Below, in pieces: positions 1 through 63,981 of a stretch of DNA of 64,000 nucleotides. The translations under genes were made by a program, and so were the position numbers. The first letter of the stretch is position 1. Each line of letters begins with the position of its first letter. Source of the stretch: Halorhabdus sp. CBA1104 (GTDB lineage: Archaea > Halobacteriota > Halobacteria > Halobacteriales > Haloarculaceae); contig NZ_CP033878.1 of NCBI RefSeq assembly GCF_009690625.1, positions 2,170,001-2,234,000 on the forward strand. The letters are read 5' to 3'. Below the pieces are notes generated by a model, which was not told where the DNA came from, did not search any database, and was given only the letters and a program-made list of their open reading frames with translations.

Positions 1-288
1 ATCCGGATCGAACTGCATCTCCGTCCGGACGAGGCCGTGTTCGACCAATCGTTCGAGCCGTCGATAGATCGTCGGTCGGGACATCTCCGTGGCCGCGCCG
101 AGTTCCTGGCCCGTCCGTGGCTGTTCGACGAGCAACGCCAGAATCTGGCGGGCGTAGGTATCCCCGAGCAACGAGAGAAGCGCCCCACTCGAGGCGCTGT
201 CCGGGGAAGATTGCTCGCAGTGCTGGTGGCCGGGCGCGTCGGTCGCTGCTCCAGCCCCGCTACGGCCGCGTGAGTGTCGTCCGGTCAT
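1..288 (-). CDS. winged-helix transcriptional regulator, N-terminal part
   Basis: Read leftward from an ATG at 286-288, this frame stays open to the window edge, so only the first 96 codons are present. After about 35 polar, low-complexity residues comes a winged-helix fold: a 'SLLGDTYARQILALL' helix, then 'EMSRPTIYRRLERLVEHGL', which looks like a recognition helix and the start of the wing. The same arrangement is seen in the complete regulator at 10250-10681, so the two are probably related. It is likely a DNA-binding regulator of the ArsR-like type common in haloarchaea. It is divergent from the kinase at 501, with 212 bp of shared upstream DNA. The ligand and targets are unknown. Confidence 0.75.
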   Translation of the reverse strand, partial: MTGRHSRGRSGAGAATDAPGHQHCEQSSPDSASSGALLSLLGDTYARQILALLVEQPRTGQELGAATEMSRPTIYRRLERLVEHGLVRTEMQFDPD

Positions 289-500
289 AGGGGGAGACAC
301 ATCCGACGGCCGCCTGAATTCGCTGGCTAGGCACACTGAGTCGGGAACTGGACCGGGCCAGGCCGGTGCTGTCTATATGCCTAGCCTTCAGGACTTTAGC
401 CGGACGGGGCGAACGACGATCATCGCTCCCGAAAGATGAGAGCCGCACGACTGTGCCCGATCGGCACACCACAGAAGTCACAGACAGGGACACACGAGTG

Positions 501-1496
501 ATGACCGAGACACAGACGACGGGACCGTTCGCCGCCGAGCAGTGGCCCGATCCGCTCTGTCAGTACGCCGATGCCGATGGCACCCCAGTCGTCGAATCGG
601 TGAACGACGCCTTCGAGCATACATTCGGACCCGTATCGGCGGGCGAACCGGTACGAGCGCTGTTCGAGACGGGTGACGTCTCGATCGTACAGGGCCAAGC
701 CGATCCGGGTGCCATCGGGAGGACCGACGATCGGCTCGTCGTCGAAACTGAAACACAGCCATCCACCTCGGGAACACCCTCGCGTGACCGGTTTCTCCTT
801 CGCGTCGTGACCGCAGAGGCAGACGGCGGCGTCCTCCTCTTTACACCCCTCCCGACGGCGGCCCAGGAGGCCGGCGAAATTGGGCTCGACCACGTGGCCA
901 GCGCGATCAGTCACGACCTCCGCAACCCCCTCGACGTCGCGAAAGCCCGCTTGCACGCAGCCCGGGAAACCGGCGAGACCGAACACTTCGAACACGTCGC
1001 GACGGCCCACGAGCGGATGGAACGGATCGTCGAAGACGTACTGACGCTGGCCAGGGGCACCGCAGTCGTCCAGCCCGACGATCGAGTCGAGCTCGCCGCC
1101 GCCGCGAACGCAGCGTGGGAAACCGTCGAGACCGACGACGCGACAGTCGTCCTCGACAGGTCGTTGCCGACGATCGTCGCCGACGCCGATCGCCTCCGGC
1201 GGCTCTTCGAAAATCTCTTCAGAAATTCGGTCGAGCACGGGGGGACAGACGTGACGGTAACGGTCGGCCCACTCGCCGACGCGGCGGGATTCTACGTCAC
1301 CGACGACGGCCGGGGCATCCCACCGGAGCGACGCCAACGCGTCTTCGATCCCGGGTTCAGTACCGACGACCACGGGACCGGGTTGGGGCTGTCGATCGTC
1401 AGCCGCATCGTCGACCTCCACGGGTGGTCGATCGCCGTCACCGACGCCGCGACCGGCGGCGCTCGCTTCGAGATTGCCGGTCTCGAACGCCCGTGA
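501..1496 (+). CDS. sensor histidine kinase, soluble
   Basis: 331-residue histidine kinase with a short PAS-like N-terminal part (about 15-115) and no membrane segment. The H-box 'SHDLRNPLD' has the phospho-acceptor near residue 138. The N-box asparagine is near 242 ('LFRNSVEH'), the G1 box 'DDGRGIP' at about 268-274 and the G2 box 'GTGLGL' at about 292-297, so all catalytic boxes are intact. The ATG at 501 is preferred to an upstream in-frame start at 366 because the extra 45 residues are basic and low in acidic residues, unlike a haloarchaeal domain. It is divergent from the winged-helix regulator at 1-288. No dedicated response regulator is adjacent, and its signal is unknown. Confidence 0.88.
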   Translation: MTETQTTGPFAAEQWPDPLCQYADADGTPVVESVNDAFEHTFGPVSAGEPVRALFETGDVSIVQGQADPGAIGRTDDRLVVETETQPSTSGTPSRDRFLLRVVTAEADGGVLLFTPLPTAAQEAGEIGLDHVASAISHDLRNPLDVAKARLHAARETGETEHFEHVATAHERMERIVEDVLTLARGTAVVQPDDRVELAAAANAAWETVETDDATVVLDRSLPTIVADADRLRRLFENLFRNSVEHGGTDVTVTVGPLADAAGFYVTDDGRGIPPERRQRVFDPGFSTDDHGTGLGLSIVSRIVDLHGWSIAVTDAATGGARFEIAGLERP

Positions 1497-1600
1497 GCGA
1501 CAGGTCGAACGGATTTCGCAGACAGAAACCCTGTGCTACCGTTCATGGCCGTATCCCTTCGATGGGAACCCGGAGGAAAGTTGCACGACTCCCGAAACCC

Positions 1601-2257
1601 ATGAACGTAGAAGATTTCACCGCGCAACACGCGCCAACAGACGCCGCCGAGACGTTCAGCCTCGAAAACACATACACACTCGACGTCGCCGTCGACGGGT
1701 CGGTACTGGCCAAAGCCGGTTCGATGGTCGCCTACACGGGAGACCTCGCGTTTACGGGCCAGGCAACCCCTGAAGGCGGCATCACTGGCTTTCTGAAGGA
1801 AGCCGCCACCGGCGAGGGGACACCGATCATGCGCGTCGAGGGTACCGGGACGCTCATGCTCGCCGATCGTGAGAAGAAAGTTCAGATCCTCACACTGGAC
1901 GACAGCGAGTCGATCACGATCAACGGCGAGGACGTACTCGCCTTCGAGTCGGGACTGTCCTACGAGATCACCACGATGGACAGCCTCGCAGGCTCGTTTG
2001 CCGGCGGGTTCACCAACGTTACCCTCGAAGGTCCCGGCCACGTCGCGCTGACGACCCACGGCGAGCCGGTCGTACTGGACCCACCCGTCACGACGGACCC
2101 GGGGGCGACAGTCGCCTGGAGCGCAACCACGCCGGCGGTCGAAGTCAACACCAATCTCTCGGACATGATCGGCCAGGAATCGGGTGAACGCTTCCAGATG
2201 GAATTCACGGACGCCGGTGGCTTCGTCGTCGTCCAGCCGTTCGAAGAACACGCCTGA
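1601..2257 (+). CDS. AIM24 family protein
   Basis: 218-residue protein of the AIM24/TerD-like beta-sandwich family. Runs such as 'GSMVAYTGDLAFTGQA', 'MRVEGTGTLMLADREKKV' and 'ITINGEDVLAFESGL' are typical of it. AIM24 acts in mitochondrial inner-membrane organisation in yeast; the prokaryotic members have no firm function. No signal peptide or membrane segment is visible. The ATG at 1601 starts the conserved acidic domain. An alternative in-frame ATG at 1562 would add 13 basic residues and is less likely. It is convergent with the Bat-like gene, leaving about 47 bp between the two stops. Confidence 0.85.
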   Translation: MNVEDFTAQHAPTDAAETFSLENTYTLDVAVDGSVLAKAGSMVAYTGDLAFTGQATPEGGITGFLKEAATGEGTPIMRVEGTGTLMLADREKKVQILTLDDSESITINGEDVLAFESGLSYEITTMDSLAGSFAGGFTNVTLEGPGHVALTTHGEPVVLDPPVTTDPGATVAWSATTPAVEVNTNLSDMIGQESGERFQMEFTDAGGFVVVQPFEEHA

Positions 2258-2304
2258 TCGGCACTGTCCGCTGGGTCCAAAGAGAGCAAACGAGCAGAGA
2301 CACA

Positions 2305-3876
2305 TCAACGGTCGCCGTTCGATCGTCCCGAATCGGTCTGTTCGTCGGTTGCGTCGAACACCGCTGCCAGAAGTTTCCGCTGTCCAGCCCGGAGATGGTG
2401 AAGCAGCGTCGGGCCGGTGATCCCCAGGGCTGTCGCGACATCTTCGGCGGTACTCCCTCGTGGAGACTCGAAGTAATCCGCGAAGAACGCAGTCCGAAGG
2501 GCCTCGGCCTGGCGATCGGTCAATCGGGCAGTCACGGTGTCTCGGACCGCCCCCGTCGTCTGTTCGTCCCGTCGGCGCTCGCGCTTTGCGAGTACCGCAG
2601 CGTCGTAGCGGCGCGTGATCGCGTCGGCGATCCGGCGAACGTCTTCGTCCGGGGGGAGTTCGACGACGATGCGATCGTCGGCAGCGCCGAACGTGGCCGA
2701 TTGGACCGTCCCGCCCTGACTGACGAGTTGGCCCAGTGGCGTCTCGATGCGCTGTATCAATTCGATCGAACCGCCGCCGTCGTGTTCGGCGACGACCCGC
2801 GTCTCGGTCACGGCCTCGTGGGCCGAGAGCGTCGTCGCCATCGCCTCGACCGACCGGCAAGCGGTCGCAGCGTCGACATAACAGAGGAGTTGTTCGCCCT
2901 GCTGGATGACGCCCGTGACGTCGATCCGGGCGTCGGTATCGGCGGTCGCAGCGACGAACGGGGTTGCGGGATCGGACAGTCTGAGCGTGAGTTCGACGAC
3001 CCGATCGGCCGCGAGCAACGATCGGTTGCGGGTCGCGTTGATAGCAAAGCCGGCCATCTCCCCGACGGTCCCGAAGGTCTCACGCTCGCGGGCCGTGAAG
3101 GCGTCACGTTCGGTCGCGTAGACGCCGACGACGCCGTAGACACTCGACCCGTAGGTGAGCGGGACGGCGAGCAACGACCCAAGCCCGTCGGCAAAGGCCG
3201 CCCGACGGATCGGCTCGGGCACGGACTCGTCTTCGCCAAGCGACGCGACGACCGTCGGTTCACCCCGTTCGATCGCGCGCAATTCGGGCAGGTCCGCGTC
3301 GTCGTCGAGGGCCGCCTCAATCCGATCGAGCGTGCGCCCGGTCGTCCCGGCGGCGGCCTGCAACACGATCGTCTCGGCCCCGACAGCGCGCTCACCAACC
3401 CAGGCAAATTCGTAGATGTCGGTTCCGCCCAACTGGGTACAGATGGTCTCGGCGATGTCCTCCCGCGTCGAGGCCGCCACGAGGTCACCGAGGACGTCCG
3501 CGATGAGTTCGGTACCGATCGTCAGCCGATGGAGGTCCGACTGGAGGGCGTCTCGTTGCTGCTCGCGACGTCGGTTGTCGGTCTCGTCTCGAAGATAAAC
3601 GTAGACGGCCTCCTCTGCCGGGACGATATCGACTGCGAGCCATCGGTCCAGCTCCGGGTAGTATTCTTCGACGGACAGTTCCCCGTCCGGGGTCTCGAAG
3701 GCCTGCGGGACGCGGCCCTCGACGGAGTCCGGGAAGACAGTCGCGATCGACTCGCCGGCGACAGTGCCCATGTCCACAGAGAGAAGCGTCTCGGCGGCGT
3801 CGTTGCCGTCACGAACGACTCCGTCCGGGCGTACTTCGAGAATCCCGATCGGTGCGTGCGCGAACCCAGTATCCAT
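2305..3876 (-). CDS. Bat-like regulator: PAS-GAF-bacterio-opsin activator-HTH_10
   Basis: 523-residue one-component regulator. Domains in order: PAS (about 1-95, 'APIGILEVRPDGVV'), GAF (about 120-290, 'SLLAVPLTYGSSVYGVVGV'), a bacterio-opsin-activator-type domain (about 295-440), and a C-terminal HTH_10 domain (about 455-510) containing 'LTDRQAEALRTAFFADYFE' and 'AEDVATALGITGPTLLHHL'. This layout matches Halobacterium Bat, which activates bacterio-opsin genes under light and low oxygen. The genome has room for many paralogues and no opsin gene is near, so the target is unknown. The small-molecule or redox input would enter through PAS or GAF. Transcribed alone, convergent with the AIM24 gene. 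Confidence 0.88.
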   Translation of the reverse strand: MDTGFAHAPIGILEVRPDGVVRDGNDAAETLLSVDMGTVAGESIATVFPDSVEGRVPQAFETPDGELSVEEYYPELDRWLAVDIVPAEEAVYVYLRDETDNRRREQQRDALQSDLHRLTIGTELIADVLGDLVAASTREDIAETICTQLGGTDIYEFAWVGERAVGAETIVLQAAAGTTGRTLDRIEAALDDDADLPELRAIERGEPTVVASLGEDESVPEPIRRAAFADGLGSLLAVPLTYGSSVYGVVGVYATERDAFTARERETFGTVGEMAGFAINATRNRSLLAADRVVELTLRLSDPATPFVAATADTDARIDVTGVIQQGEQLLCYVDAATACRSVEAMATTLSAHEAVTETRVVAEHDGGGSIELIQRIETPLGQLVSQGGTVQSATFGAADDRIVVELPPDEDVRRIADAITRRYDAAVLAKRERRRDEQTTGAVRDTVTARLTDRQAEALRTAFFADYFESPRGSTAEDVATALGITGPTLLHHLRAGQRKLLAAVFDATDEQTDSGRSNGDR

Positions 3877-4004
3877 CGTATTGAGTCACCGTCTGGCGGC
3901 CTGTTAAGGGTACGCCTGGCGGCGATGACAGACGACCAAAATGGCAGTCCCCACCCTCGACGGGCCGGGAAAGCTGGCTACCATACACCGTGGCCGATTG
4001 CCCC

Positions 4005-4679
4005 TCAGGCGTTGCTCCGGCGGCCGATGTAGCCACCGAGTGCACTCAGCCCGACGACGTAAGCGATCCCAAACAGGCCAGCGACCACCACCACTGCAAC
4101 GGCAGCCGCCGCACTCGGCCCCGGAAGTCCGGTAAACAGTCCGACGCCGACGAACACGACCACGAGAAGCGCCGGGACGATCGTAAAGAGGCCGGCGAAG
4201 ATACCGGTCGCAACACCACTGTCGCGATCGGTCGAGAGGTAACTCGCGGCCGCGCCGCCGAGGATCGGCGAGAGCGGGACGAAGCTGAGCACGGTGTTGA
4301 CGATCGCACCGACCACACCGAGGATCCACCGGGGCGTCGGCCGGCCGTCGCGTCGGGCACGCCCGTGGGCCACGACGACGGCGATCCCGAGGAGGGCAAT
4401 CGAGACGCCAGCAACGACGAGGCCGAGCCCACCCCACTCACCGAGTGCAACCAGGGTATCGATCGCCTCGGCCTCGGTGAGGACGTCGGAGCGAAACTCG
4501 CTGTCTCGGAGGAGTGTCGCGATATCCGGGCGCTCGATCGCCGCCCGGAGGGCCGCCCCGCCGAGGGCAACCAGAAGGCCAAAGACGCCCAGGACGGCAC
4601 CGATCGCCCAGTCGAGCGGTCGGTCGAAGGCGGGCGTCGGTTCGGGGCCAGTGCGTGCTGATCGGTCAGTCGATGCCAT
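4005..4679 (-). CDS. DUF5518-type multispanning membrane protein
   Basis: 224-residue membrane protein. A short polar N-terminus is followed by helix 'WAIGAVLGVFGLLVALGGAA' (about residues 25-45), a soluble stretch, and then four to five more hydrophobic segments. Glycine-rich 'GGAAASYL' and the repeated hydrophobic pairs are typical of haloarchaeal DUF5518 proteins, whose function is unknown. The ATG at 4679 is chosen over a start at 4739 because the upstream extension is basic. The gene is divergent from the RDD protein at 4784, with about 104 bp shared upstream. Assignment to DUF5518 rests on the pattern of helices and is moderately sure. Confidence 0.7.
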   Translation of the reverse strand: MASTDRSARTGPEPTPAFDRPLDWAIGAVLGVFGLLVALGGAALRAAIERPDIATLLRDSEFRSDVLTEAEAIDTLVALGEWGGLGLVVAGVSIALLGIAVVVAHGRARRDGRPTPRWILGVVGAIVNTVLSFVPLSPILGGAAASYLSTDRDSGVATGIFAGLFTIVPALLVVVFVGVGLFTGLPGPSAAAAVAVVVVAGLFGIAYVVGLSALGGYIGRRSNA

Positions 4680-4783
4680 AGCGGTCAGTATGGTCCGAGC
4701 ACAATAACACATCGGCAGGCGTTTCACCGGTAGAAACACGCGAATCCGAACTATACGGAGAGACCGTCTACACCTGAGTAACG

Positions 4784-5239
4784 ATGACCAAGCGTCCCGA
4801 ACGACGGTGTGGCGTCGGTATCCGTGGCGTCGCGATGGCGATCGACTCGATCGTCTGGATCGCGCTGTTCATGGGTGCTGTTTCGGCGGTCGGCCTCCTG
4901 ACCGGGGAGCTACAGACCACGAGCGAAGGGATCGAAACCCACCTCGAAGGCGGTCCGGCGCTGGGAGGCACTGCCCTCTGGCTTGGGCTCTCGATCCTGT
5001 ATCACACGCTCTTGGAGTGGCGGTGGGGCAAGACGCTCGGGAAGTATCTCGTCGCCATCAGCGTCACGCGACCGGACGGGTCGTTACCGTCGTTGCGTGG
5101 CTCGCTCGCCCGGAACGTGCTCCGGCTTATCGACTGGTTGCCATTCTTGTATCTGGTCGGGATCGTCACGATCGCGGTCTCGGAGACGGACAAGCGTCTC
5201 GGTGATCGCGTCGGCAAGACGATCGTCGTGCGGTCCTGA
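4784..5239 (+). CDS. RDD family membrane protein
   Basis: 151-residue RDD-domain protein with three membrane helices: about 13-38 ('AMAIDSIVWIALFMGAVSAVG'-like), about 62-80, and about 115-135. The RDD family is named for Arg-Asp-Asp; here the first-helix arginine and aspartate sit in 'RGVAMAIDS'. The conserved 'WRWGKTLGKYLVAISV' loop follows helix 2, and 'NVLRLIDWLPFLYLVG' forms the last helix. RDD proteins are thought to take part in transport or osmotic adaptation, and at least one bacterial member is a cation/proton antiporter. There is no operon partner on this strand. Confidence 0.85.
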   Translation: MTKRPERRCGVGIRGVAMAIDSIVWIALFMGAVSAVGLLTGELQTTSEGIETHLEGGPALGGTALWLGLSILYHTLLEWRWGKTLGKYLVAISVTRPDGSLPSLRGSLARNVLRLIDWLPFLYLVGIVTIAVSETDKRLGDRVGKTIVVRS

Positions 5240-5317
5240 TCGATACGACTGGGTGAGGGGGTCCCACCTCGACGCGCCCGTCGGGACGCCCGGGAGAGCG
5301 CGTGGCTGTCCAGGGAC

Positions 5318-6664
5318 TCACGGAACCGCTCGGCGGGCCACGACGCCCGACGTGCCGTCGACGGTAGCGGTCACGACGACGGTGTCGCCGTCTGGATCGA
5401 CGTAGAGATACAGGTACATGTCCGCCCGCGGAGTCGTCGTCGAGGCTTCATAGCCCGATTCGACCGCCTCGAAGGCCACCTCGTCGACGTCGAGGGGCTT
5501 GGTGATACCGACCCGAACGCGCTCTTGGTCGGCCTCGTAGGTGAACGCGAAGGCCTCGTCCGGAACGGCTGTCGCGACTGCCTCGGGCGGATCGACAGGG
5601 GCGCTCGTGTCCGGGGTCGCGGTCGTCGTTCGATCTGGCTGGATGACTTCGAAATCGAGGACGCCCTCACTGTAGGTCCCACTGGCAGTCACCCGATCGC
5701 CGTCGATCGACACGGAGTGGGTTTCGCTTGCGGAGCCAAACCGTGCGTCGAACTGGCTGGCCACCTCGTCGTCGAGAGAGCGCTGGACGGCGAAATCGGC
5801 CCGAATGTGGCCGGTGTCGGGTTCGAACGTCACCGAGGCGAGTACATCGTCCGTCGGGCGGATGAGGTCAGTCACGGGACGGTCGGCCGGCTCGCCGAAA
5901 TACGCGTCGTCGAGATCGACCGGGCCGAGCCACCCGCCAGCGACGTGGCCGGTCCCGGCCGTCTCCAGGAGCCACGTCAGAGTCTCGGAGTGCTCGATCG
6001 CGCTTGCACGATCGCCGTTCGCGGTCTCGACGACACGGCGGATCTCCTCGCGGGTGTCTGCGACGACGACAGCGGTGTCGTTGATCGCCGTCACACCGTC
6101 CAATTCCTCACCAGGGGGTGCATACAGCGTGAACGAGCCGATAGACCCCGTTTCCTCGAACGGGACGTCACCGACCGGGCCAGCAGACCCGGAGCGAAGC
6201 GTCTCCGCGGCCTCGGAGCGATCGAACTCGCCCAATCCGATCGCGACGTTGCCCGCCATGAACAGCTCACCGATCCCGCGATCTGGCTGTTCGGGGTCGA
6301 TGAGAGGCCCGAATCCGGACACGGCAATCGCCAGGGCAGCCCCGGCGACCAGCCGCCCGCCCACGGCGAGTGGCCAAGAGAGCAACGGATCATCGACGCT
6401 ATCGAAGCCCGAGACGTCGGTCAAGACGCGATCGGCGCCTCCAGCCGTGTCTGCCGGGAGAATCAGGGGCAGCAGTTCGTCGCCGCCCGCCGTCTCACTC
6501 GCGATGCTGAAATCCAGATAGGCGACGTTGACGCCGCCGTCCGGCGCCGGGAGCCACTCCGCATACGAGGGAGAGCCGTTCGTCATGCCGAGGCAACCGC
6601 CGAGTGCGACAGCTGTCGCTGCCCCACCGAGGCGCAGGAATCGACGGCGATGGAGGGATGTCAT
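5318..6664 (-). CDS. Tat-exported lipoprotein of unknown function
   Basis: 448-residue secreted protein. The N-terminus has a twin-arginine motif 'HRRRFLRLGG', a hydrophobic stretch and a lipobox 'ALGGC' with the cysteine at residue 24. This predicts Tat export and lipid anchoring on the outer face of the membrane, as is usual in haloarchaea. The mature protein is acidic and largely beta/alpha, with repeated segments around 150-330 ('GSFTLYAPPGEELDGVTAINDTA'-like) but no catalytic motif I recognise. A hydrophobic patch around 100-120 may be buried. Monocistronic, with no informative neighbour. It is a haloarchaeal conserved hypothetical. Confidence 0.8.
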   Translation of the reverse strand: MTSLHRRRFLRLGGAATAVALGGCLGMTNGSPSYAEWLPAPDGGVNVAYLDFSIASETAGGDELLPLILPADTAGGADRVLTDVSGFDSVDDPLLSWPLAVGGRLVAGAALAIAVSGFGPLIDPEQPDRGIGELFMAGNVAIGLGEFDRSEAAETLRSGSAGPVGDVPFEETGSIGSFTLYAPPGEELDGVTAINDTAVVVADTREEIRRVVETANGDRASAIEHSETLTWLLETAGTGHVAGGWLGPVDLDDAYFGEPADRPVTDLIRPTDDVLASVTFEPDTGHIRADFAVQRSLDDEVASQFDARFGSASETHSVSIDGDRVTASGTYSEGVLDFEVIQPDRTTTATPDTSAPVDPPEAVATAVPDEAFAFTYEADQERVRVGITKPLDVDEVAFEAVESGYEASTTTPRADMYLYLYVDPDGDTVVVTATVDGTSGVVARRAVP

Positions 6665-6764
6665 GGGTAGCGATCACCGACCGGGAGAGCGGCCGTCTTG
6701 GCCGAATCGTTGGGCAACCAGCGGCATAAACCATGTCCTCACGGGCCGTGGCCGGCGGTCGACA

Positions 6765-8447
6765 CTAGTCGCCCTCGGTCGGGCCGGGGCGGGCTACGGT
6801 ATCGAAATCGGGGAGGTCGACGAGCACGACACTCCCGCGTGGCTCCCGTGTCTCGAAAGAGAGGCTACCGCCAAGCCGTGTCACGGTCCAGGCGACCAGC
6901 CACAGGCCAACGCCGCTCCCGTGTCTGACCGGGGTCTCTTTGCCTTCGAGGAGCACGGCCCGCTCCTCGGGTGGGATCCCCGGCCCATCGTCTGCCACCG
7001 CGATCCGTCCACCATCGGCCGTCGAGCGGACGTGGATCGTCACCGACGGCGTCGCACGGTCGGTGTGTGTCACGGCGTTGTCGAGTAGCTCTTCGAGTAC
7101 CAACTCGATCGCGTCCGGGTCAGAGCGAATCGAGACGCTGTCGGGGACTTCGAGCGTTATATCGGCGTCCATCGGCCCCGTCCCAACCGTCCGGGCGATC
7201 GCAACGAGGTCACACCGCTCCCGTTTCAGTCGTGCCTCCGTCAACACGCGTTCGGATCGGTCGACTGTATCGGCAAGGTCTACCAGCCCGGTCGCGAGCG
7301 TCTCGATCCGATCGAAATACTGGCTCGCCTCCGCTGTTGGCAGGCCCTCCTCACGGATCGGTTCGGCGAACCCGCGAATCGCGTCGAGGTCGTTGCGAAG
7401 GTTGTGACGGATGACTCGATTGAGAACCTGAATCCGCTGTTTGCGGGTTTGGCGGTCCGTGACGTCCGCAAACCGGTAGGCTTGGCCGAGTACGTTACCG
7501 TCCGTATCGGTGATCTCGGTCCGGTCGACGACGAACTCGCGTCGTCCGGCCGTCGTCTGGAGGGTGAGTGGCCGCTCCTCGGGAAGAGAGTCGGGGATGT
7601 CCGCGACGGCGGCAAGAGATCGTTTCCGGAGTCGGGTCGGCTCGACGCCGAAGGTGCGCTCTGTGGCCCGGTTGACGTCAAGCAGTCGTCGGGATCGATC
7701 GACGACAACCACGGGAACCGACATCGCATCGAGGGCCGTCTCGCGGGCGAGATGGCCGGCCGCAGCACCGCGCTCGAAGGCGTCGGTGCCGAAGGCGATC
7801 CAGGCGAAAATGGCGACGACGGCCGCGATCTGGACGAAGGCGAGTAGATAGATCGACTCCTCACCCAGTTGCCCCCCGTAGCCGATCGCAAGCGGGAGGA
7901 ACGTGATACCGAGTCCCGCAAAGACGAACGCCGCCCCGGACCCGGCCGGCAGATCGTCGTATGTCACGGCCGAACGCACGAGCAACACCACACCGAGCAG
8001 CCCCAGGGAAAAGACCGTCATCTGCAAGACGAACGTCGTGAGCGCGGCCACTCGCCCGAGCGGGCCTAGCTGCATCCGGCCGGTCTGCTGAGCCCACGTG
8101 ATCGCCGTACTTGCGACCGTCAAGCCACCGAGGAGTCCGAGTCCGACCCAGCGACGCGACGTGATCGACGGCCCCCGGCCGGTGTACTCGAAGACGAACG
8201 CGATCCAGAGTAACGACGCGAAGGCGTACCCGCCGATGAGCAGCAACTCGCTGAGGGCAGTCAGTTCGATAGGGACGATGCCGGACCGGCTGAACGCGAT
8301 CGCCCCGCCCAGAATTCCCAGCAGGACGGCAAGCAGTCCATACGGGACGATCCCGGGATGGCGATGGCGGCGGGCGGTGCGTCCAGCGATCAGGACACCG
8401 GTCGCGACCACGAGAACACCGAGAGCGGCCCAGCCGAGTTGGCTCAC
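6765..8447 (-). CDS. sensor histidine kinase with 7-TM N-terminal sensor and PAS
   Basis: 560 residues. The N-terminal 220 residues form about seven hydrophobic helices, the histidine-kinase 7TM sensor module. A PAS domain spans about 235-330. The H-box 'VIRHNLRND' carries the phospho-acceptor His348. The N-box is 'ELLDNAVTH' (Asn457), G1 'DDGPGIP' lies at about 487-492, and G2 'GSGVGLWL' at about 510-517, so the kinase core looks complete. Its ATG overlaps the stop of the upstream gene in an ATGA (8444-8447), so the two are almost certainly translationally coupled and made in equal amounts. The upstream gene encodes a similar protein with a degraded core. Confidence 0.9.
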   Translation of the reverse strand: MSQLGWAALGVLVVATGVLIAGRTARRHRHPGIVPYGLLAVLLGILGGAIAFSRSGIVPIELTALSELLLIGGYAFASLLWIAFVFEYTGRGPSITSRRWVGLGLLGGLTVASTAITWAQQTGRMQLGPLGRVAALTTFVLQMTVFSLGLLGVVLLVRSAVTYDDLPAGSGAAFVFAGLGITFLPLAIGYGGQLGEESIYLLAFVQIAAVVAIFAWIAFGTDAFERGAAAGHLARETALDAMSVPVVVVDRSRRLLDVNRATERTFGVEPTRLRKRSLAAVADIPDSLPEERPLTLQTTAGRREFVVDRTEITDTDGNVLGQAYRFADVTDRQTRKQRIQVLNRVIRHNLRNDLDAIRGFAEPIREEGLPTAEASQYFDRIETLATGLVDLADTVDRSERVLTEARLKRERCDLVAIARTVGTGPMDADITLEVPDSVSIRSDPDAIELVLEELLDNAVTHTDRATPSVTIHVRSTADGGRIAVADDGPGIPPEERAVLLEGKETPVRHGSGVGLWLVAWTVTRLGGSLSFETREPRGSVVLVDLPDFDTVARPGPTEGD

Positions 8448-44618: not shown

Positions 44619-44700
44619 GCCAGGATGGCCGAACGGTAAGGCGCACGCCTGGAAAGCGTGTTCCCCTTCGGGATTCTGGGTTCAAATCCCAGTCCTGGCG
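44619..44700 (+). tRNA. tRNA-Ser (anticodon GGA)
   Basis: 82-nt serine tRNA. Acceptor GCCAGGA pairs with TCCTGGC, the discriminator base is G as required for serine, and the long variable arm is CGTGTTCCCCTTCGGGATT-like. The T-loop is GGTTCAAAT and the anticodon loop reads CTGGAAA (anticodon GGA). No intron is seen. The last 14 bases plus one following base are repeated at 44989-45003. Confidence 0.95.
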
Positions 44701-44701
44701 T
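44687..44701 (+). repeat. 15-bp direct repeat, copy 1, at the tRNA-Ser 3' end
   Basis: TCCCAGTCCTGGCGT; the same 15 bases are at 44989-45003, 302 bp downstream. tRNA 3' ends are the usual attachment sites of tyrosine recombinases, so this may be one att half. Confidence 0.6.
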
Positions 44702-45341
44702 CTTCTGTGAGGAACAGGCGTGACGAGCGAAGCGACCAGTCTGGAATTTGAAGCCCTGGAAGTCACAGTCCCGGAACGACCGAGCGTTGCGAGGGGGCGA
44801 AGCGACCTCGAGGTGCCGAACGGCGAAGCCGTGAGGCAGGAGGTCACACGCCCGGAACGTCTTCCTCCGGTTCAAACACCGCGGGACGCATCGCGTCCCG
44901 CGAGGCTCGCAGACGCTCTGCGTCTGCTCACCACCGGGAGACTCACTTCGTTCGGCTCCCGAAGTTCGCCTCGCGAGGCTCGGCGAACTCCCAGTCCTGG
45001 CGTGGACGACCCGAACGTTGTGAGGGGTCGCCGAACTCTCGAACGGGGAGAGCGCGGTCGAGGGAAGTGAGACCGCGGGATTGGGAACGGGGAACGAACT
45101 GACCCGTGAGCGGAGCGAACCGTGAGAGACGCGAGCAACTCGCGAGCGGCACAGATGCAATAGGGCGGGTGTGAAGTGCGGCCGGATGGAGAGACATAAA
45201 AGGCGACGCCAGACGGTGCGTGTACCAGGTGGTCGAAAGTGGCACAATCGACCGTTTTCCGGGGATTTTCGCCGGCGTTTCCGGGAAAGCGACTCCCGGA
45301 ACAGCAAAGTCTAACAGTCAGGGGTGTGAACACTGGCAGTG
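44702..45341. other. gene-free region with hairpin array after tRNA-Ser
   Basis: 640 bp without a credible gene. 44702-44880 has degenerate GAGCGAAGCGA-type repeats and a T-arm-like GGTTCAAAC at 44870-44878. Four hairpins follow: GCGGGACGC/GCGTCCCGC (44881-44901), GCAGACGC/GCGTCTGC (44909-44927), CGGGAG/CTCCCG (44935-44961) and GTTCGCC/GGCGAAC (44964-44988). Then the tRNA-Ser repeat. From 45004 to 45190 more palindromes occur (GACCC/GGGTC, GCGGTC/GACCGC). A TATA-like ATAAAAGG near 45196-45203 probably serves the ferredoxin gene. Confidence 0.55.
44989..45003 (+). repeat. 15-bp direct repeat, copy 2
   Basis: Exact copy of the tRNA-Ser 3' end, without the rest of the tRNA. It directly follows the row of hairpins at 44881-44988. 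It is the expected form of the distal att site of an element that has mostly been lost. Confidence 0.6.
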
Positions 45342-63908: not shown

Positions 63909-63981
63909 GTCCGGGCTAGGGTAGTGGTATCCTTTGGCCCTGTGGCGGCCAAGACGTGGGTTCAATTCCCGCGCCCGGACC
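63909..63981 (+). tRNA. tRNA-His (anticodon GTG)
   Basis: 73-nt tRNA. Acceptor GTCCGGG pairs with CCCGGAC, the discriminator is C, the anticodon loop is CTGTGGC (GTG anticodon) in a TGGCC/GGCCA stem, and the T-loop is GTTCAATTC. The base just before the acceptor (63908) is T, so the extra G at position -1 that marks tRNA-His is not encoded and would have to be added afterwards. A run of five T follows. Confidence 0.93.

Follow-up and report, generated by a model that had tools for sequence, protein, structure and literature searches.

The site downstream of tRNA-Ser(GGA) in Halorhabdus sp. CBA1104 is one locus of a class-wide family of tRNA-anchored, RtT-like hairpin repeats and not the scar of one island. 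The window that we analysed, a stretch of 64,000 nucleotides (positions 2,170,001-2,234,000 of a 2.63-Mb single-contig genome), had received a first-pass annotation, and the observation made there at tRNA-Ser is more general than its reader could see. Taken as a whole, the data are probably best explained by RtT-like repeats that are anchored at tRNA genes throughout the Halobacteria, that turn over by recombination or slippage and whose hairpin would be under selection as RNA, a reading built on sequence comparison.

The locus is anchored by the gene for tRNA-Ser with anticodon GGA (44619-44700; all features of the locus lie on the plus strand), which was identified by ARAGORN and by the Rfam model RF00005. 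The reported duplication of its 3' end was confirmed: the 15-bp sequence TCCCAGTCCTGGCGT occurs at 44687-44701, as the tail of the tRNA, and again 302 bp downstream at 44989-45003, and the match can be extended to 17 of 18 nt. The pair is unique in the genome, where the 14-mer CCCAGTCCTGGCGT has only these two exact sites and one more site with a single mismatch. The insert of 302 bp (44702-45003) sits precisely at the 3' end of the tRNA and contains a module and hairpins, with no gene, integrase or cargo. It starts with a leader (CTTCTGTGAGGAAC..., 44702-44743) that shares its position and has a similar start with the leaders at other tRNAs. T-arm-like sequence, of which one segment had been noted, is indeed present: sequence comparison revealed an inverted T-arm copy (GAATTTGAAGC) at about 44741-44755 (44744-44754), which is the 5' strand of a long hairpin, and a truncated direct T-arm copy, GGTTCAAA, at 44869-44876. 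The hairpin core between them (44755-44868, with the motif AGTCACAG ... GAACGTCT and the inner stem GGAAG/CTTCC) agrees with the consensus structure and, along 116 nt, shows 85% identity to its counterpart at tRNA-Gly(GCC). The direct T-arm breaks off after GGTTCAAA, and the identical break, followed by CACC, is found in another genome of the genus (G001). Because the T-arm hairpin is broken there, the copy at tRNA-Ser(GGA) may be non-functional.

Behind the break follow the four perfect hairpins that had been described ahead of the tail copy, and with arms of 10, 8, 6 and 8 bp the range of 6-9 bp given for them was nearly right. Hairpin 1 (44880-44902) and hairpin 2 (44909-44927, arm 8) both have loops of 3 nt, hairpin 3 (44935-44961) has an arm of 6 bp and a loop of 15 nt and resembles a hairpin in G001, and hairpin 4 (44963-44989, GTTCGCC...GGCGAACT) directly abuts the tail copy. 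Four or more such hairpins are rare, occurring in about 0.1% of the 123-bp windows of this 64-kb stretch. Hairpin 4 belongs to a recurrent type that is also found in front of tail copies at tRNA-Arg(CCT), tRNA-Gly(CCC) and tRNA-Gly(GCC) in the genus. The idea that these are ordinary palindromes collected here had to be abandoned, since hairpins of these types also stand immediately in front of the copied tails of other tRNAs. The second tail copy (44989-45003) forms the right end of the insertion, so that the unit at tRNA-Ser(GGA) consists of a type-A module whose direct T-arm ends after GGTTCAAA, four hairpins of the type-B kind and the copied tail.

The comparison with other loci allowed us to define these two types. 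Modules adjoin the 3' end of a tRNA gene and have its orientation; they contain an inverted copy of the T-arm of that very tRNA, a covarying hairpin, and a direct copy of its T-arm and/or 3' tail. In type A, a leader, commonly with a small hairpin, is followed by an inverted T-arm (GGATTTGAACC), a covarying stem with an internal loop (AGTCGCAG ... CGTCT) and a variable tip, a direct T-arm (GGTTCAAATCC) and finally the tRNA's own tail. In type B, the copied tail is directly preceded by perfect hairpins, for example GTTCGCC...GGCGAACT or GCTCGC...GCTCACT, and not by a T-arm. Among the tail copies of seven species of the genus, 64 were classed as type A and 40 were not; a few of the latter are type-A copies whose T-arm has degraded. 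Compensatory changes were seen at seven of the 18 pairs of the consensus fold, and 83 distinct hairpins showed 30 different combinations of the three innermost pairs. The conserved core AGTCGCAG...CGTCT itself was seen across 43 genera.

Within the genome of CBA1104, a search with a 501-bp segment matched three other tRNA loci, tRNA-Arg(TCG), tRNA-Ser(TGA) and tRNA-Gly(GCC), each followed by copies of its own 3' end, and the same architecture is present after about half of the tRNA genes. Allowing one mismatch, 17 of the 42 tRNAs have their 13-nt tail repeated within 800 bp downstream of itself, compared to 7 of 1722 cross-pairings in which each tRNA's tail was searched in the regions downstream of other tRNAs; a chance match of the tail was rejected on these counts. 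The tail copies are usually spaced about 100-125 bp apart, in arrays of up to four. Furthermore, 23 of the 24 matches in this genome (E<0.03) to a covariance model built from the module hairpin have a same-strand tRNA upstream of them. At the right edge of the window, tRNA-His (63910-63981) likewise precedes two modules that carry copies of the tRNA-His tail and are located just outside the 64 kb (G000:C1:2234022-2234090).

The family is not restricted to this genus. The covariance model found matches in 113 of 116 Halobacteria genomes, representing 43 of 45 genera, and, in a phylum-wide sample, in 31 of the 33 genomes from the order and in none of 164 genomes of the phylum's other classes. 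In three complete genomes of other families, a same-strand tRNA lies no more than 800 bp upstream of 91 of the 97 matches. We also searched with a T-arm pattern that demanded only two T-arm copies 29-59 bp apart and no tail. Among the 80 loci listed, most were from Halobacteria of many genera and a few from other archaea and bacteria, and where a tRNA lay alongside a haloarchaeal match, the tail of that tRNA usually reappeared behind the hairpin, copied exactly or almost exactly, again in many genera. A Woesearchaeota contig (L075, about 6376-6460) and an alphaproteobacterial contig (L127, 1-180) also show a tRNA tail, an inverted T-arm, a hairpin, and a T-arm with tail copy; as their unrelated cores share this plan, it seems to arise repeatedly.

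Presence of the modules at orthologous tRNAs is unstable: across the seven species of the genus, such tRNAs are followed by zero to four tail copies, the number usually being different. Comparing the region downstream of tRNA-Ser in relatives, where a full element bounded by the same 15 bp had been envisaged, we found precise empty sites in two genomes (G004 and G006) and an interrupted module in G001. In both empty sites, tRNA-Ser(GGA) has no module and the sequence behind it aligns to the ancestral flank that follows the second tail copy in CBA1104 (45004-45093), with scores of 98 and 69, respectively, against a 95% control of 21-22, and does not align to the sequence directly after tRNA-Ser of CBA1104. 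As species of the same genus show this exact empty site, the 302 bp represent a precise insertion bounded by the repeats. Further precise pairs of empty and occupied sites were found for tRNA-Arg(TCT), tRNA-Ile(GAT) and tRNA-Val(GAC). Modules are thus bounded by direct tail repeats and are gained or lost precisely, leaving the tRNA intact. In G001 and G002, the tRNA-Ser flank is positioned between the tRNA and a module, and one reading would be that an ancestral array at tRNA-Ser lost different units through recombination between tail repeats. Given the unstable presence at orthologous tRNAs, a house-keeping function is unlikely.

Cores are shared between different tRNAs. A core of about 113 nt with about 85% identity is common to tRNA-Ser(GGA) and tRNA-Gly(GCC) in CBA1104 and to tRNA-Gly(GCC) and tRNA-Arg(TCT) in a related genome (G005), in each case flanked by the ends of the local tRNA. 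Cores at different tRNAs are slightly more alike within a genome (0.608) than across genomes (0.559). Vertical inheritance per tRNA alone was rejected because same-tRNA cores of different species are no more alike than different-tRNA cores of one genome, recent orthologues excepted. Gene conversion between modules would explain the sharing of cores, and so would transposition.

The arms provide indications of the level at which the hairpin may act. The set that we analysed comprised 133 modules from four genera, located at 31 tRNA species and recognised by tail copies, irrespective of pairing. At 59 of 61 variant sites, the T-loop variant in the inverted arm is that of the module's own tRNA, with the caveat that this arm had been chosen by its match to the T-arm, up to three mismatches being allowed. 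Where inverted and direct arms mismatch, the combination read on the sense strand is G-T in 93 cases and A-C in 21 (p = 5e-12, with phylogenetic dependence partly controlled), or 71 to 20 after identical combinations are collapsed. Of three unrelated families, two show the excess in this direction when taken alone, at p < 0.01; it is weak in the genome of CBA1104 itself (11 vs 8), and the few mismatches of the inner stem show no bias (4 vs 3). In the Halorhabdus subset, substitutions in the direct arm show no excess of C>T over G>A (6 vs 7), a result that speaks against a simple strand bias of mutation. As mismatches are G-T rather than A-C, the data support a constraint on pairing in the transcribed sense, either of RNA or of the sense strand, and would fit selection at this level.

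Among known systems, the closest in architecture is the RtT repeat of E. coli (RF00391), described for tyrTV and other enterobacterial tRNA operons as tandem units 3' of the tRNA. As in the haloarchaeal modules, each unit ends in a copy of the 3' end of the upstream tRNA, and part of the tRNA 3' region is also present in inverted orientation and pairs with the direct copy around a variable hairpin core, an arrangement found in the haloarchaeal family and interrupted at tRNA-Ser(GGA). In tyrTV of E. coli MG1655 (1286400-1287900), the spacing of the tail copies is 178 bp, and the tRNA-Tyr tail also occurs in inverted copies (GGGGAAGGAT), which form a hairpin by pairing with the tail copy that follows. 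The Rfam model detects four elements there and none in the window or at six module loci, and we therefore call the haloarchaeal family RtT-like rather than RtT. The two also differ in the inverted copy, which comprises the 3' strand of the T-stem and the acceptor strand in E. coli and the T-loop in haloarchaea, in the size of the unit (178 bp versus roughly 100-300 bp), and in their spread, with the haloarchaeal family extending to 31 tRNA species and to almost every genome of a class. More generally, no known RNA family other than tRNAs matched at Rfam's curated cut-offs, and weak sub-threshold matches were taken as chance. RtT has been described as an RNA that is set free from tRNA transcripts, and a role in the stringent response was proposed for it (as summarised in PMC4986893). 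By analogy, the haloarchaeal module would be read as the 3' trailer of the tRNA transcript and probably freed at tRNA 3'-end processing, transcription with the tRNA and release being indirectly suggested by the excess of G-T on the sense strand; the bias of G-T over A-C would also be in line with a hairpin kept by selection as RNA. Losses, and changes of copy number within arrays, could result from recombination or replication slippage between tail or T-arm repeats, and cores may be swapped between tRNA loci by gene conversion. Slippage alone does not account for the arrival of a module at a module-free tRNA, nor for the local T-loop variant in the inverted arm. One way in which both arms could be taken from a new host tRNA is target-templated copying, possibly primed by RNA or by a hairpin, as modules pass between different tRNA genes. 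We regard this as unlikely, but if true it would define a type of element that has its ends rewritten at every target.

Two mobile-element readings have to be weighed against this. Modules might be non-autonomous mini-elements, tiny cassettes moved in trans by SNJ2-like or related tRNA-targeting tyrosine integrases whose attachment core is the tRNA tail. The precise insertions with direct tail repeats and the 113-nt core common to three tRNA loci in the genus would fit such a mechanism, and the same genome indeed holds an integrase element whose attachment core, the 13-nt tail of tRNA-Tyr, is close in extent to the 15-bp repeat at tRNA-Ser. This element of about 6.7 kb (G000:C1:325800-334000, about 240-6988 in the segment) has a tyrosine integrase ORF (5830-6906 in the segment) adjoining the attR copy GGGGAGGGCGGAC, and beyond it lies a hairpin module, which we consider older and which is the one module match of CBA1104 away from a tRNA. 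Together with at least three matches in genomes of other families, it belongs to a set of orphan modules 5-51 kb past a same-strand tRNA, as if islands had landed in between, and integrative elements probably did insert between tRNA and module at these sites. Orphan matches were located in G049 at 2067350, 2522929 and 1782864, and in G039 at 2234315. On the other hand, tail recombination requires an identical tail and leaves the spread between tRNA types unexplained, the attR of the tRNA-Tyr element has no T-arm hairpin, a search of IMG/VR with the hairpin pattern yielded no haloarchaeal virus, modules were not seen dispersed away from tRNAs, and a bias towards G-T on the sense strand would not be expected. 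Overall, we consider movement in trans rather improbable. Much further from the data is the remnant of one decayed integrative element at tRNA-Ser, in which an internal deletion left two attachment sites and some hairpins. This is what the first-pass annotation had suggested, alongside repeated integration and excision. Its second suggestion holds in spirit, as the repeats do bound a precise insertion with empty sites in G004 and G006. The 15-bp tail repeats and the precise empty site would also agree with a decayed element. However, the 302 bp contain neither a gene nor a remnant of integrase or cargo, modules with a shared core occur at about half of the tRNAs of this genome, and dozens of tRNA genes in Halobacteria have the same modules behind them, with a hairpin that is conserved and covarying, so that we consider this origin extremely improbable.

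Alternatively, the modules could be a mutational by-product, with tandem duplications and template-switch palindromes piling up at tRNA 3' ends without any selection. This could account for the fast turnover and for the restoration of the empty site by deletion between direct repeats, and hairpins are common in haloarchaeal intergenic DNA. But a core conserved in 43 genera, compensatory covariation and the one-sided tolerance of G-T point to constraint, and we find this explanation quite unlikely and favour a repeat family with a selected hairpin over it.

In archaea, mobile DNA integrates mainly at tRNA 3' ends, and a partial tRNA found there is usually taken as the scar of an island. Many of the partial tRNA copies of haloarchaea belong to a separate repeat family present in almost every genome; this affects the annotation of att sites and of 'partial tRNAs', and orphan modules could serve to mark the ends of islands. 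The modules also offer a natural system to study precise gain and loss at tRNA genes, and the comparisons point to a putative class of RNAs, tRNA trailers that have a covarying structure and could be tested for function in Haloferax. Furthermore, the architecture shared with RtT of E. coli raises the question of one mechanism in Archaea and Bacteria. Partial tRNAs beside complete ones are mentioned in the literature (PMC7921747, PMC3119063), and our literature search, which covered few subscription journals and is therefore weak evidence, retrieved no account of the family in haloarchaea.

Other mobile sequences share single features with the modules. Haloarchaeal elements that integrate at tRNAs (tyrosine integrase, SNJ2-type and others) likewise produce precise insertions bounded by direct tail repeats that leave the tRNA intact, whereas modules have no integrase or cargo, measure 100-300 bp and carry a conserved hairpin; the att sites of archaeal tyrosine integrases at tRNA genes vary in length (PMC8371274). 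With casposons and CRISPR-like repeat duplication the point in common is the T-loop at a tRNA 3' end, in which the casposase of A. boonei recognises TCAAATC, producing a 14-15 bp duplication that starts 8 bp after it (PMC6614799). A target duplication of the casposon type was rejected as it has the wrong extent, the module copy spanning the 3' strand of the T-stem or the T-arm through the tail, and as no genes are present. MITE and REP sequences are also short and non-coding and have inverted repeats, but the modules have one orientation and tRNA-specific ends and are restricted to tRNA 3' flanks, with 91 of 97 matches near a tRNA and not dispersed. A viral origin was rejected too: the six IMG/VR matches contain no haloarchaeal module and share palindromes of a tRNA 3' half with two contigs from Bifidobacterium genomes. 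In the Bifidobacterium and viral contigs, the palindrome is formed by the 3' half of an apparent tRNA-Met (GGATTTGAACC...CCAGAGG...GGTTCAAATCC) and may represent a two-sided attachment site.
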